Source: Paenibacillus stellifer
GTDB taxonomy: Bacteria; Bacillota; Bacilli; Paenibacillales; Paenibacillaceae
Reading direction: 5' to 3'
DNA length: 64,000 bases
Assembly (NCBI RefSeq): GCF_000758685.1
Contig: NZ_CP009286.1
Span: 5,437,001-5,501,000, forward strand
The number at the start of each line of letters is the position of its first letter. Position 1 is the stretch's first letter. The translations under genes were made by a program, and so were the position numbers. Shown piece after piece: positions 48,710-53,159 of the stretch. The notes beneath the pieces were generated by a model, which saw only the letters and a list, made by a program, of their open reading frames with translations, had not been told where the DNA came from and searched no databases.

Positions 48710-49723
48710 CTACACCGTCCGTCCCGCAATCTTCCGGTAGGTTGCCTCATCCGAGACGACATACAGCCGGGCCTGCTCCGGGATCGGATCGCCCAGCCGC
48801 CGGTTGATCCCGAGATCATTCCGGTCGGCGATAAGCGTCGCGCCCTGGCGCAGCAGCGCCTGAAAAGCATCCTCATAAGTCTTCCACGACCGGTCGACCG
48901 GAACCTCGTAAATGTCATCGCCGTGGGCGCGGCTGATCAGCTGCGCAATGACTTCAGGGTTCCCCTCCTGCAGCGCGGCCCGCACGGCAAGGCGGGAGAC
49001 CGCGTCGTGGGAGAGCACGAAATCATTGACCCGGACATGCCGGAAGTTCTGCACGTTCTTCTCTTGCTGAATTTCCACCGTCGTATGCACGTCCGGAGCC
49101 AGCCGCTCGATACTCGAAGCGATCAGCAGCGTCTTGCCGTCGACAAGCGAAGCCTCATCAATTCGCGTATCGCCGAAGATAATCGCGGCCCGCGCCCGGG
49201 CGATGCCCGCCTTATCCAGAATTTCGTCAGAGGACGGGTCGCCGCTGATGAAATGAACCTGGCGCAGCTGCTCCAGCGGATGCTGGCCCGATTCGTCGAT
49301 GATCACAATATGGCAGTCCGGGTTATAGCTGAGAATTTCCTCCACCGCCGACTGCGCTTTTTTGCTCCAGTTAATAAGAATAACATGACTTCTTCCTACA
49401 TAAGACAGCTTGCCCGCCCTCCTCTGTCTCCCGATCTCCGCGATGGAATCGATGACCTTGCCAATGACCAGGCTGAGCAGCCCGATGCCAAAAATATACA
49501 GAAAGATCGAGAAGATTTGACCGGCATGGGTTTTGGCGAAAAAGTCGCCGTAGCCCACCGTGGCCATAGTCGTCATGACCCAATAGAACGCATTGAACCA
49601 ATTGCCGAAAGTTCCCGGTTCGAGCAGGTAAGCCGCCGTCGCGCTGAGCAGGACGAACAGGAGGATAATCAGCCCGATCGTTCGTTTCCGGATATTCGTC
49701 ATAATTGTGGACAGCTTGAGCAA
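48710..49723 (-). CDS. Two-TM potassium channel with TrkA-N/RCK domain
   Basis: A 337-residue channel subunit. TM1 is about residues 16-33, the pore carries the K+ selectivity filter TVGYGD at 55-60, TM2 is about 70-90, and a regulator-of-K+-conductance domain starts at about 111 (HVILINWSKKAQ). The C-terminal half (EVPVDRSWKTYEDAFQALLR onward) fits TrkA-C-like ligand binding. It resembles B. subtilis YugO and MthK. The TTG start is uncertain; ATG 49702 is an alternative. It is the last gene of the five-gene operon beginning at 52723, 37 bp after the DUF350 gene. Confidence 0.92.
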   Translation of the reverse strand: MLKLSTIMTNIRKRTIGLIILLFVLLSATAAYLLEPGTFGNWFNAFYWVMTTMATVGYGDFFAKTHAGQIFSIFLYIFGIGLLSLVIGKVIDSIAEIGRQRRAGKLSYVGRSHVILINWSKKAQSAVEEILSYNPDCHIVIIDESGQHPLEQLRQVHFISGDPSSDEILDKAGIARARAAIIFGDTRIDEASLVDGKTLLIASSIERLAPDVHTTVEIQQEKNVQNFRHVRVNDFVLSHDAVSRLAVRAALQEGNPEVIAQLISRAHGDDIYEVPVDRSWKTYEDAFQALLRQGATLIADRNDLGINRRLGDPIPEQARLYVVSDEATYRKIAGRTV

Positions 49724-49760
49724 AAAATGAATGGTGCTCTCCTCCCGCCGGGAATCCCGC

Positions 49761-50153
49761 TTAAATAATCAGACTGCTGATCGCAAAGGCCGTACCGATA
49801 AACACCATGCACAGCAGCGTTCCGACCGCCACATTGCCTTCTTTCAGCTGCTCCGACACCCGGAAATTGATCGTCACCAGTTCAAAAATCCAGTATGCCG
49901 CCACCAGGCACACATACCCGACCGCGAACCACAACGCCATGAACCAGATCGATGTATTGGTATAGGCCGCCACGCCGAGAATAATGGCGGTTGCGAGAAA
50001 CTTCCCGCCCAGCGCCAGGCCGACGGCCGTATTGCCTTTTTTCAGCTCTTCCAGATCCTTAAACGGTGTCATCCAGCTGAATATGAGCATCCCGACCAGC
50101 TGGAGAACGATGATTACTGCCACACTTACCAGAATATTAATCACATCCGTCAT
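49761..50153 (-). CDS. DUF350 (YjfL-type) membrane protein
   Basis: A 130-residue protein with four helices made of two similar halves (each ending in a GNTAVGLALGG or GNVAVGTLL motif), the hallmark of DUF350/YjfL. Function unknown. ATG 50153 overlaps the lipoprotein stop (ATGA) and has GGGGG upstream; a GTG at 50162 is the alternative. In enterobacteria YjfL is encoded beside a glutathionylspermidine-synthase-like ligase, as here. Confidence 0.9.
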   Translation of the reverse strand: MTDVINILVSVAVIIVLQLVGMLIFSWMTPFKDLEELKKGNTAVGLALGGKFLATAIILGVAAYTNTSIWFMALWFAVGYVCLVAAYWIFELVTINFRVSEQLKEGNVAVGTLLCMVFIGTAFAISSLII

Positions 50154-50812
50154 TTCGCCCACCCCCGAAATTTTGCATAAGCCAAATCGTAGTCCGCAAA
50201 ATCATGAACTTCTTCCAGCACGACGGAGACCACTTTCTTCTTCTCCATGTCGGTATAGCGTTTGGCGTCGATCGGCTGCTTGATCCGGTTGCCCGACGGC
50301 AGCTCCACCACAGCGAAGTTCCGGGTCTTGCCCTTGTACTCCGTCTTGTACACGCCGACAAGGTCGACGTCTGTCGTGACTGATACTTTCAGGTTCTTCA
50401 GATCGTCTGTAGCCGACTGCAGATCCTTGTACGATTTGATCGTGGACCAGGCCGACAGCTTAACCGTGTTCTTCTGGTCGGCGTCCGTCGTCATTTCGGC
50501 ATCCATATATTGAAGCGTCCATACCTTGTCGCCCGTGGCATAGTTGTTGTCGTTGGGCAGCAGCTCGTTGTCGGGCAGGATCGTCATGTCGCTGCCGACC
50601 AGATCCCCGACTGTGCCTTCCACGACCCGGTAATCCCACGGAACGCGCGCCACATCACTCGTCGTATCGGCATTCGGATTCGTGGAGAAGACGCTGTCCG
50701 GATTATTGGAGCAGGCGGTCAGGCCCAGCACCGCTGCGATCAGCAGCGGCAGCAGGACAAGACGCAGGCTCCGGCCGCGCCGCGCAGCCGTCTTGCTAGA
50801 GTTCTTGCGCAA
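50150..50812 (-). CDS. Lipoprotein of unknown function in the ligase operon
   Basis: A 220-residue lipoprotein. A basic N-terminus and hydrophobic core end in the lipobox LTAC (Cys34), so it should be anchored on the outer face of the membrane. The mature part begins with an Asn/Ser/Thr-rich stretch, then VPWDYRVVEGTVGDLVG and a mixed alpha/beta region. No family was recognised. TTG start (GGGAG 9 bp upstream); it overlaps the ligase gene by 17 bp and the DUF350 gene by 4 bp. Confidence 0.85.
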   Translation of the reverse strand: MRKNSSKTAARRGRSLRLVLLPLLIAAVLGLTACSNNPDSVFSTNPNADTTSDVARVPWDYRVVEGTVGDLVGSDMTILPDNELLPNDNNYATGDKVWTLQYMDAEMTTDADQKNTVKLSAWSTIKSYKDLQSATDDLKNLKVSVTTDVDLVGVYKTEYKGKTRNFAVVELPSGNRIKQPIDAKRYTDMEKKKVVSVVLEEVHDFADYDLAYAKFRGWAK

Positions 50813-52010
50813 TTGGTCTCACTCCCATGGCAATAAAGTGGCTTGTATTTCCGGTAATGGGTCCGCCGCCCCGGCCCAGCAGGCCGCACGGCTTCCCGTT
50901 GATCACGAACATGCCGGTCAACAGATGAAGCTCGCCTTCCGGCGTCCCGATTCTCGCCAGCTCCGCCCGCTTCTGGTACACGGACGGAAACAGCGCGCTG
51001 CTGTCGAATCCGTCTTCATCCTCCAGCTCCAGGCTTCCCGCAGGGTCGTAGAGCCGGACGGAGCCGCCCTCGCGGCCGAACATCGACTTGGAGACGAAGT
51101 TCCCGGAGAAGACCGGCTTGTTATAAGTCGGAAGCATGTAGTTCTCAATCGCTTCGCGGTCTTCGGCGTCGAACAGCAGGCCGAGCTCATACAGCCCCCA
51201 TACCGCGGCCATCAGTCCCTTGGACTGAAGCAGAATGCTATGGGGATTGTTGAATAGCGTCAGCTGGCCGGTCTCAACCGAATAAGCCAGCGCATCGCCG
51301 CCTTCATCGACGGCCATCCACTCCTTCGGATACAGCGCGAACATCCGCTCAATGACGCGGCCCTGACCGTCCTTGACGACCCCATCGTCAATGGTCAGCT
51401 CCAGACAGTCCACGCAGGCAATATCGAGACCGCTGTGGCGGACCAGTGCTTCAATCGTGCCCGAATCCTCGAGATGAGTGCCATAATCGACGCAAGCCGC
51501 GGTATCGGGCAACTCTTCACCCCAAGCGGCCGCAACCTGCTCTGGCATTCCCCCGTTAACCGTGGGCACGCCTTCTCTCTGACACACCCAGGGCGTCGCG
51601 ATCGACGCTTCCACGTAACCTGTCGGTGTGTCCGCGTTCAGCTCCAGCAGCTTGATTACGCCTTCATCCGACACGGCAAAATCAAACCGGGCATACCGGC
51701 TGATCAGTCCCTCGGACGGAATCGGGATCAGATCAAGCATCTCCCACAGCACCTCCGGAATGCCAATCAGACTGTACAGATCATGGCGTCCGTGCACATA
51801 GCGGGCGGCCTTGTCGAGCACGTTCCACAAACGCCCGGAGGCCCGATACAGCTCCTCATAGACATCTCCGCGCATGACCGCAACGCCGTCCAGCCAGTAT
51901 TCCTCGTCTTCAAGATCGGCCCAGGTGAAGCCCATCTCCCCGAGCTTCTCCACCGCTTCCTCGCGGCCGCCTCCCTGATGGCCGATCCATTCAAATACAG
52001 GCCTTGTCAT
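50796..52010 (-). CDS. Glutathionylspermidine-synthase-like ATP-grasp ligase (YgiC/YjfC type)
   Basis: A 404-residue ATP-grasp amide ligase related to the synthetase domain of glutathionylspermidine synthase and E. coli YgiC/YjfC. Recognisable blocks are RYARFDFAVSDEGVIKLLEL with NADTPTGYVEAS (metal and substrate region), PHSILLQSKGLMAAVW, a KPVFSGNFVSKSMFGREGG phosphate-binding stretch and a C-terminal GLLGRGGGPITGNTSHFI. There is no amidase (CHAP) domain, so only ligation is expected. The real acceptor is unknown. It is coupled by ATGA to the Ser-rich gene upstream, whose product may be its substrate. Confidence 0.93.
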   Translation of the reverse strand: MTRPVFEWIGHQGGGREEAVEKLGEMGFTWADLEDEEYWLDGVAVMRGDVYEELYRASGRLWNVLDKAARYVHGRHDLYSLIGIPEVLWEMLDLIPIPSEGLISRYARFDFAVSDEGVIKLLELNADTPTGYVEASIATPWVCQREGVPTVNGGMPEQVAAAWGEELPDTAACVDYGTHLEDSGTIEALVRHSGLDIACVDCLELTIDDGVVKDGQGRVIERMFALYPKEWMAVDEGGDALAYSVETGQLTLFNNPHSILLQSKGLMAAVWGLYELGLLFDAEDREAIENYMLPTYNKPVFSGNFVSKSMFGREGGSVRLYDPAGSLELEDEDGFDSSALFPSVYQKRAELARIGTPEGELHLLTGMFVINGKPCGLLGRGGGPITGNTSHFIAMGVRPIAQEL

Positions 52011-52723
52011 CCGCCGAAACCGCTGCTCTTGGAGCTCGAACGGGAGCTTGATCTTGAGCTCGACTTGGAGGATTTCGATGACTTGGAGCTCGATGAGCTG
52101 GAGCCGAGGCCGCTGGACGTTCCGCCAACCCCGCCCGACGACGAGGAAGTCTTCCGTCTCGTAATGGTGCCGGTCGTGGAGGTTGACGTCTTGGGCTTCA
52201 CTACAGACCCCGTTACCGGCTTGTTCTGGAATTTGGTGCTGTCATAAGTACGCGGCTTGTAGACGGTGCGGGTTCCGCCGTAATACGTCGGACGTCCGTC
52301 ATACCACCGGCTTGGCGAATAGCTTGAGCCGCTGTTGAACAGAAAATGATACAGCAGCAGATCGTCCCAGCCGAAGCCGGAGTTGTAGCCGCCGTAATTG
52401 TTGATGACGGTCGTGCCGCCCGACGTGCTTACGCCCGGCGACGCCGTAGGCTGGGCCGTCTCTCCCCCCGTATCCTCCGGATACGGGATGTTCCAATCCA
52501 CGTATTGGTCAAAATACGCTTTGACTTCCTCCGTGGACCAGGATACCAGCTTCGGCTCATCCGCTGATCCGCTGCTCGCATTGGCTGGCGGCGCCGGAAC
52601 AAACAGCGCGTTCGCCAACAATGCGACGCCGAGCGATGTCGACAGCGCCTTAACCGGCTTGCTGGCAGGATCGAAGCCCCTGCTCTCTTTCTTCTCATTC
52701 TCAGGTTGCTGTTCTCTACCCAA
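52007..52723 (-). CDS. Ser-rich YgiB/YjfM-like protein with C-terminal Gly-Gly
   Basis: A 238-residue protein, first in the operon (TTG start, AGGAGG 8 bp upstream). It has a hydrophobic segment (about 28-48, ending in VPAPPANA, possibly a signal peptide), an acidic middle and a Gly/Tyr/Asn part (TVINNYGGYNSGFGWDD). A basic Thr/Lys stretch follows (VYKPRTYDSTKFQNKP), then about 50 residues almost entirely of Ser with Lys/Arg, ending SSGFGG. The same architecture, including the final Gly-Gly, occurs as I recall it in E. coli YgiB (DUF1190), the operon partner of YgiC. A Gly-Gly tail is a plausible acceptor for the ligase. Confidence 0.85.
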   Translation of the reverse strand: MGREQQPENEKKESRGFDPASKPVKALSTSLGVALLANALFVPAPPANASSGSADEPKLVSWSTEEVKAYFDQYVDWNIPYPEDTGGETAQPTASPGVSTSGGTTVINNYGGYNSGFGWDDLLLYHFLFNSGSSYSPSRWYDGRPTYYGGTRTVYKPRTYDSTKFQNKPVTGSVVKPKTSTSTTGTITRRKTSSSSGGVGGTSSGLGSSSSSSKSSKSSKSSSRSSSRSSSKSSGFGG

Positions 52724-52793: not shown

Positions 52794-53159
52794 TTATTCC
52801 GTCCGCATCGGAACTAGCAGAAGCTCAAGCTTGCCTTCGTCCAGATTGAGGCGTCCCTCAACAGTCTCGAATTCGCGGCCAGCTACAACCAGATAGTTCA
52901 CATGCTCCAAAGCGGCGATCATCGCTGCGCTCCAGGGGCGTTCCTCAATCCGGTTCAGCTCGCCGTCCTGCATCTTCTCATATAAAATGACGCTCATTCC
53001 GTTATCCAAAGTCTTTCCCCGCCTTTTCATTGTAATCGGTGCATTCTTCGTGTTCATACGGATGGAGAGCATTCGATGTTTCAGAATGACGCTTCTGTCA
53101 TTGTAAAAGCTTCCCATAACAGAATAATGGTTCCCCTGCCTGGAAGCAATGATTTTCAT
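52794..53159 (-). CDS. Hypothetical protein
   Basis: A 121-residue basic protein with no signal peptide or membrane helix; predicted mixed beta/alpha (VILKHRMLSIRMNTKNAPIT, then MSVILYEKMQDGELNRIEE, and a beta-rich end). I recognise no family. It precedes the Ser-rich gene by 70 bp on the same strand and may share its transcript. Confidence 0.65.
   Translation of the reverse strand: MKIIASRQGNHYSVMGSFYNDRSVILKHRMLSIRMNTKNAPITMKRRGKTLDNGMSVILYEKMQDGELNRIEERPWSAAMIAALEHVNYLVVAGREFETVEGRLNLDEGKLELLLVPMRTE

Follow-up and report, generated by a model that had tools for sequence, protein, structure and literature searches.

What does a GspS-like ATP-grasp ligase act on when it stands without an amidase domain beside an exported protein with a Ser/Gly-rich tail? 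This question is raised by a leftward gene cluster in Paenibacillus stellifer (contig NZ_CP009286.1, positions 5,437,001 to 5,501,000; this whole stretch of 64,000 nucleotides is the window), which encodes a Ser-rich protein terminated by Gly-Gly (GG protein), the ligase, a lipoprotein, a DUF350 membrane protein, and a K+ channel. The reading preferred here, to which a probability of about 60% is assigned, is that the ligase joins a polyamine to the carboxylate at the end of the tail ahead of export, within an envelope system that is linked to PspA. The first-pass annotation of the locus had proposed the GG protein as the substrate of the ligase; on sequence evidence it is still the most likely one, and support for this prediction now extends beyond the locus, with tails found at 40 of 40 intact ligases of this type.

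The ligase matched the Pfam family PF03738 (GSP_synth) at 172.9 bits against a cut-off of 29.3, and its nearest solved structures by sequence were those of YjfC (PDB 7uk6, E = 2e-18) and YgiC (7uk8, E = 7e-10). PF03738 was the sole Pfam match of the protein, and the model for the bifunctional GspS/A (NF007801) gave 25 bits against a cut-off of 882; together with the protein length (Table 1), these results bear out the annotated GspS-like ATP-grasp ligase without an amidase domain. In an alignment with Escherichia coli GspS, all ten tested residues (R316, D318, E330, N332, E391, K498, K533, R538, Q568, and R598 in GspS numbering) were retained, which we take from the GspS crystal structure to be the ATP/Mg and substrate residues. 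No second ligase copy was found in the 5.66-Mb genome at E 0.001. The annotation had also described this type of ligase as being without an agreed function, which is outdated for the ligase itself, since YgiC and YjfC of E. coli are named peptide-spermidine ligases in RefSeq and have reportedly been described as such (Pederick, 2023).

Related loci were drawn from the species-genome collection, which was scanned for exact peptide patterns taken from the ligase. The 49 loci obtained carried titles of Paenibacillus, Cohnella, or Gorillibacterium, or only of Bacilli/Paenibacillaceae, and ligase identity in the set was 58-97%, the nearest named relative being P. sinensis (97% identical to the window ligase). 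The five genes co-occur in these genomes as the annotation would have it: the GG protein was present in 48 loci, the ligase in 49, the lipoprotein in 48, DUF350 in 48, and the channel in 34, and the gene order was constant. Missing GG protein, lipoprotein, and DUF350 genes corresponded to contig ends (L006, L046). A further well-conserved gene, designated X, lay upstream of the GG protein gene in 48 of 49 loci; it belongs to the cluster as a sixth gene that was absent from the annotated list, and is probably its first gene.

The GG protein had no Pfam match at E 0.01. The last 40 residues of its 48 orthologues averaged 72% Gly and Ser, and the tails were variable, with 43 distinct sequences among the last 15 residues, whereas the extreme end was near-invariant: Phe at position -3 in 48/48, Gly at -2 in 47/48, and Gly at -1 in 46/48. 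The terminus was therefore FGG in 46 orthologues, and FSS and FGS in the other two. In the genome of the window, GGNTTYGGNGGNTRA (GFGG-stop) occurred at seven sites and the pattern read backwards at six; only one of the seven ended a Ser/Gly tail, which was that of the window itself. The conserved end bears on an alternative, in which the product of the ligase is a small soluble peptide-polyamine resembling glutathionylspermidine, the tail protein is a co-regulated envelope protein, and its tail is only a flexible linker. E. coli GspS, which has the same fold, forms such a product from glutathione, and exported proteins often contain low-complexity Ser/Gly linkers; however, the conserved part of this variable tail is its terminal residues.

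Tailed partners were also found beside ligases far from Paenibacillus. The phylum of the window gave 42 matching genomes, among which 18 with stronger matches (19 regions) were read; the genome of the window, two genomes of the same genus, and 12 weaker ones were set aside, and nine weak loci were scanned with short flanks. Twenty plasmid loci were read among the matches listed (60 of 158 and 40 of 143 records), selected by organism while the gene neighbours were still unseen and covering Pseudomonadota, Actinomycetota, Deinococcota, Cyanobacteriota, and Bacillota. Three phage loci were read among 40 listed of 76 phage records. In E. coli, the genes preceding ygiC and yjfC encode YgiB (ending SSRSMGG) and YjfM (ending RGHWGG). 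The partner tails were SSRGGWGSSVSSRSSWGG in Vibrio, VARQGFGGRSSFSFGG in Rhizobium, VSRGGFGGTAKGGSGS in Pseudarthrobacter, VSRGGLTSTARGALSSGG in Deinococcus, VSRGGFGGAVSSGG in Acinetobacter, RVSGFGSFRAGGASS in Nostoc, KSSGIGKSSSSKSSGFGG on a Bacillus plasmid (the ligase of which is identical in phage vB_BsuS_PJN02), GKSGIGSSVKPSGRGASS in Virgibacillus, VRGGFGSTGSSFSAGG in phage Motura, and GKGGFGGRSGGFGG in phage Phosso. The partners share a Ser/Gly tail and a core resembling GG-[FWYIL]-G, and they end in Gly or Ser. Their bodies are unlike: DUF1190 was detected in YgiB and the Phosso partner and is annotated in six plasmid loci, and the partners in Acinetobacter, Deinococcus, and Trichormus had no Pfam match over the cut-off. 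In L094, L095, and L099, long proteins (823-880 aa) that match GSP_synth, twice each in L094 and L099, lay beside DUF350 and tailed proteins ending in SAIS, TSTS, and HVGS.

The association was counted with a script in 41 loci, in which open reading frames (ORFs) of at least 60 codons were scored as tailed when the last residue was Gly or Ser, the penultimate one Gly, Ser, or Ala, and at least 9 of the last 20 were Gly or Ser. Of the ORFs that share the strand of a ligase and lie no more than 2.6 kb from it, 33 of 502 were tailed, vs. 4 of 1216 elsewhere in the same loci (Fisher p 2e-14, with overlapping frames counted); two of the 33, second matches in L103 and L130, look spurious. By script and inspection together, two of the 41 loci (L101 and L125) were without a tail gene. 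This enrichment, across five phyla and two phages, argues against the view that no enzymatic link exists and that the genes share only a stress regulon, with Ser/Gly tails arising by accident. Functionally separate stress genes can share an operon, and the channel comes and goes among relatives, but such a coincidence is considered very improbable.

The tested residues were then compared in 47 aligned ligases, including GspS, two copies from L124, and three phage proteins. All ten were kept in 41, one being E. coli GspS, and each of the 40 intact standalone ligases (five phyla, two phages) had a tail gene next to it or at most 0.8 kb away. Among these tails, 39 ended in Gly or Ser; that of Sphingomonas (L119) contained SRGGFG but ended in SIHA. 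The six other ligases had changed residues: seven in Azospirillum L125, two in L101, one each in the Aeromonas phage phiAS4 and L118, and four and two in the L124 copies. No tail gene was found in the flanks read of L125, L101, and phiAS4; the genome that carries L101 has one other ligase (L100), which is intact and accompanied by a tail gene. A link between lost residues and lost tails is only suggestive, because the changed ligases of L118 and L124 still have tail genes. None of 36 ORFs at the E. coli gss (GspS) locus carried a tail, and none was detected by the script at the nine weak GSP_synth loci. The tail gene at all 40 intact ligases, its absence from the gss locus, and the statement, attributed to Sui (2012) in an excerpt of PMC12506659, that YgiC is without GspS activity make a soluble metabolite an unlikely product.

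Several observations weigh against capping of the tail with a polyamine. The tail rule was drawn up after the pattern had been noticed, and, of the 41 loci, the script itself picked up a tail ORF in 31, whereas tails of a looser form were recognized by eye in a further eight. Tail genes accompany the ligase of L118 and both copies of L124 despite their changed residues, and the T4-like phage phiAS4 (L151), in which one residue of ten is changed, has no tail gene within ±2.5 kb. The terminal residue of 41 non-window partners was Gly in 24, Ser in 16, and Ala in one; Gly is therefore not required at the tail end. The Ser/Gly tails might also be plain linkers. Most partners had a lipobox-like motif (25 of 37 checked) or a signal-like N-terminus, and a cytosolic ligase must therefore act before or during export. 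The channel was lacking in 15 of 49 loci, two of which end near the genes in question, and PspA was not beside the operon in 42 of 49. Finally, a genome search found no S-adenosylmethionine (AdoMet) decarboxylase in the genome of the window.

T4-like phages carry a GSP_synth ligase, and phiAS4 has a Band-7 protein nearby; the phiAS4 ligase might act on a host protein.

Because AdoMet decarboxylase is absent, we infer spermidine as the most likely amine indirectly, from the reported activity of the family and from the route that the genome appears to contain. Spermine_synth gave only a weak match (42.6 bits), but a carboxynorspermidine decarboxylase scored 520 bits (cut-off 409), the neighbour of its gene reads by eye like carboxynorspermidine/saccharopine dehydrogenases, and two Orn/Lys/Arg decarboxylase matches were present; thus, it looks as if spermidine is made by the carboxyspermidine route. 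In a sample of 197 genomes of the family, AdoMet decarboxylase was found in 163, one of which (G582) is listed under the genus of the window, and a GSP_synth match was found in 145; the lower-scoring GSP_synth matches may represent a second lineage. Alternatively, the ligase could use the tail and add a different amine, such as an amino lipid, an amino acid, a cell-wall peptide, or a diamine. The amines of ATP-grasp ligases are varied, the decarboxylase is missing, and, beyond the catalytic core, GspS T446, W571, K607, and D610 are not conserved in the window ligase. On the other hand, a Glu aligned with GspS E391, which presumably has a role with spermidine, was present in 43 of 47 aligned ligases, and spermidine activity has been reported for YgiC and YjfC. 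Moreover, in Achromobacter phage Motura (L152, 668-3493), the genes of a tailed lipoprotein and an intact ligase stand in a row directly after one annotated as homospermidine synthase. The synthase gene had Pfam saccharopine dehydrogenase domains and no NCBIfam match, and the lipoprotein scored 20.9 bits for DUF1190, just below the cut-off of 22. A different amine is regarded as improbable.

Capping of the tail with a polyamine would proceed as follows. The GG protein carries an export-signal-like N-terminus, and its flexible Ser/Gly/Lys tail ends in Phe-Gly-Gly. The cytosolic ligase would bind the free C-terminus and, with ATP and Mg, convert the terminal Gly carboxylate into an acyl phosphate that is attacked by the amine; this chemistry is suggested by the conserved residues and by GspS, which activates the Gly carboxylate of glutathione. 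Modification is placed in the cytosol, before export, because no export signal was seen in the ligase by eye. Export would then leave a C-terminal polycation on a flexible leash outside the membrane. DUF350, the lipoprotein, X, and the RCK K+ channel may form the membrane part of the system, which PspA-DUF4178, linked to the operon in some relatives, would tie to the membrane-stress response; PspA, DUF350, and the K+ channel together suggest a role in membrane or potential stress.

The tag, of the approximate form [RKS]GG[FWYIL]G followed by Ser/Gly to the last residue, is, as judged from the loci read, a general feature of the standalone ligase family and not of Paenibacillus. A broader proposal, more tentative than the reading for the window and somewhat short of probable, is that a general modification exists in bacteria and some phages, in which these ligases recognize a portable C-terminal tag on unlike exported proteins and cap it with a polyamine, the tethered polycation acting at the membrane and perhaps also on the K+ channel that the operon encodes. 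Free polyamines block K+ channel pores, and direct action of a leashed polyamine on the channel, hinted at only by gene linkage, would be the boldest part of the proposal. In searches of an open-licence library, no paper on a family-wide C-terminal tag was found by title or abstract, nor was a description of polyamines attached to the C-termini of bacterial envelope proteins, or a physiological substrate on which there is agreement for YgiC and YjfC of E. coli. The tag beside 40 intact ligases in five phyla would name a likely substrate, and the exact residue, for these two enzymes. If true, the proposal would mean that envelope proteins of bacteria are modified at the C-terminus with polyamines, and it would tie polyamines, K+ channels, and the PspA stress response together.

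Table 1. Genes and features of the ligase cluster, with positions in the window.
Feature	Position	Strand	Description
Gene X	52794..53009	-	71 aa, TTG start, small beta-rich protein
GG protein	52007..52723	-	238 aa, Ser-rich, exported, N-terminal signal-like segment, C-terminus ...KSSGFGG
GG protein tail codons	52010..52156	-	Ser/Gly/Lys-rich, terminal Phe-Gly-Gly
Ligase	50796..52010	-	404 aa, standalone GSP_synth ATP-grasp ligase, YgiC/YjfC type; PF03738
Lipoprotein	50150..50812	-	220 aa, lipobox LTAC, no Pfam match
DUF350 membrane protein	49761..50162	-	YjfL family; PF03994
K+ channel	48710..49732	-	Two transmembrane segments, TVGYGD filter, RCK/TrkA_N; PF07885 + TrkA_N, MthK match

The ORF calls agree with the annotated arrangement of five leftward genes in coordinates, overlaps, and gap, and TVGYGD is present. 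The GG protein and ligase genes overlap by 4 bp (ATGA), those of the ligase and lipoprotein by 17 bp, and those of the lipoprotein and DUF350 by 13 bp; the gap from DUF350 to the channel is 37 bp when the channel start is taken at 49723, and gene X lies 70 bp from the GG protein gene. The first ATG, GTG, or TTG of the channel frame is at 49723, and an ATT codon stands at 49730-49732. The aligned start was conserved in 34 of 34 relatives (ATG in 14, GTG in 8, TTG in 5, ATT in 4, and CTG in 3), and the channel probably starts at the ATT at 49732. Start codon use is unusually loose across relatives, which perhaps means low translation. The channel matched PF07885 (Ion_trans_2; 65.6 bits, cut-off 22.5), TrkA_N (44.5 bits, cut-off 23.8), and MthK (E = 1e-20); the ion flux that the annotation ascribed to it is speculation. 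A gene for type B ribosomal protein L31 (48262-48510, minus strand) lies downstream, and was near the channel in 6 of 49 loci.

DUF350 scored 107.5 bits (PF03994, cut-off 26), and a second DUF350 gene is present in the genome (G000:C1:1923307-1923699). The lipoprotein had no Pfam match in the window and only insignificant ones in other members; its alignment, in which L015 and L030 are left out, had 47 invariant columns over 24 sequences, and the family does look particular to this group. Gene X matched no Pfam family over the cut-off, and its structure model was beta-rich, with a predicted local distance difference test score (pLDDT) of 91.5. In 6 of 49 loci (L015, L029, L030, L037, L049, and L052), a pspA-DUF4178 pair on the opposite strand separates DUF350 from the channel, and in L033 the pair lies approximately 1.5 kb beyond DUF350; DUF4178 alone occurred in L044 and L050. 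In the genome of the window, a related pair lies away from the operon (L142, about 3.193-3.195 Mb), and a Pfam scan of ten window proteins at 47-55 kb found no PspA, one half of the CesT/Tir-PspA dyad of the third operon group of Ravi et al. (2024), with no search aimed at CesT/Tir.

Among known systems, E. coli GspS/A shares with the window ligase the ATP-grasp domain and all ten tested residues; it differs in its fused amidase and in the lack of a tail ORF in its locus, and its substrate is free glutathione. MthK-type RCK channels likewise have two transmembrane segments, TVGYGD, and an RCK domain, but the window channel is part of a ligase operon. The E. coli ygiBC and yjfIJKLMC loci, which combine a DUF1190 lipoprotein and a peptide-spermidine ligase with DUF350, PspA, and DUF2491, resemble the window in the type and residues of the ligase, in an exported partner ending in Gly-Gly, and, for yjf, in DUF350 alongside. 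However, their partner has a DUF1190 body and a lipobox, no channel, lipoprotein-like, or X-like gene is annotated in the stretches read, and PspA is adjacent in yjf, which it is not in the window.

The closest counterpart is found in Ravi et al. (2024; PMC11237479), whose section on these operons describes PspA operons with a GspS-like ATP-grasp ligase, a K+ channel, DUF350, a DUF1190 lipoprotein, and DUF2491, together with variants without PspA and third-group variants with AdoMet decarboxylase, DUF4247, DUF2617, and band-7; the C-terminal tail is unmentioned in that section. With ligase, DUF350, and K+ channel in one operon, the cluster of the window resembles the third group, with which it also shares an exported partner and, in 7 of the 49 related loci, an adjacent PspA-DUF4178. 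As far as that section goes, three differences stand out: PspA lies elsewhere in the genome of the window; the partner is a Ser-rich FGG protein instead of a DUF1190 protein, the tail alone being shared; and the lipoprotein and X families have no Pfam match. The first-pass annotation had regarded the lipoprotein and the channel as marks of a distinct Bacillales variant. The lipoprotein family may well be particular to this group, but for the channel that view is not supported, given the operons of Ravi et al. (2024) and the ion channels annotated close to ligase genes of Rhizobium, Pseudarthrobacter, and Deinococcus; the operon of the window is a variant of the operons in the section cited, and not a distinct Bacillales invention.

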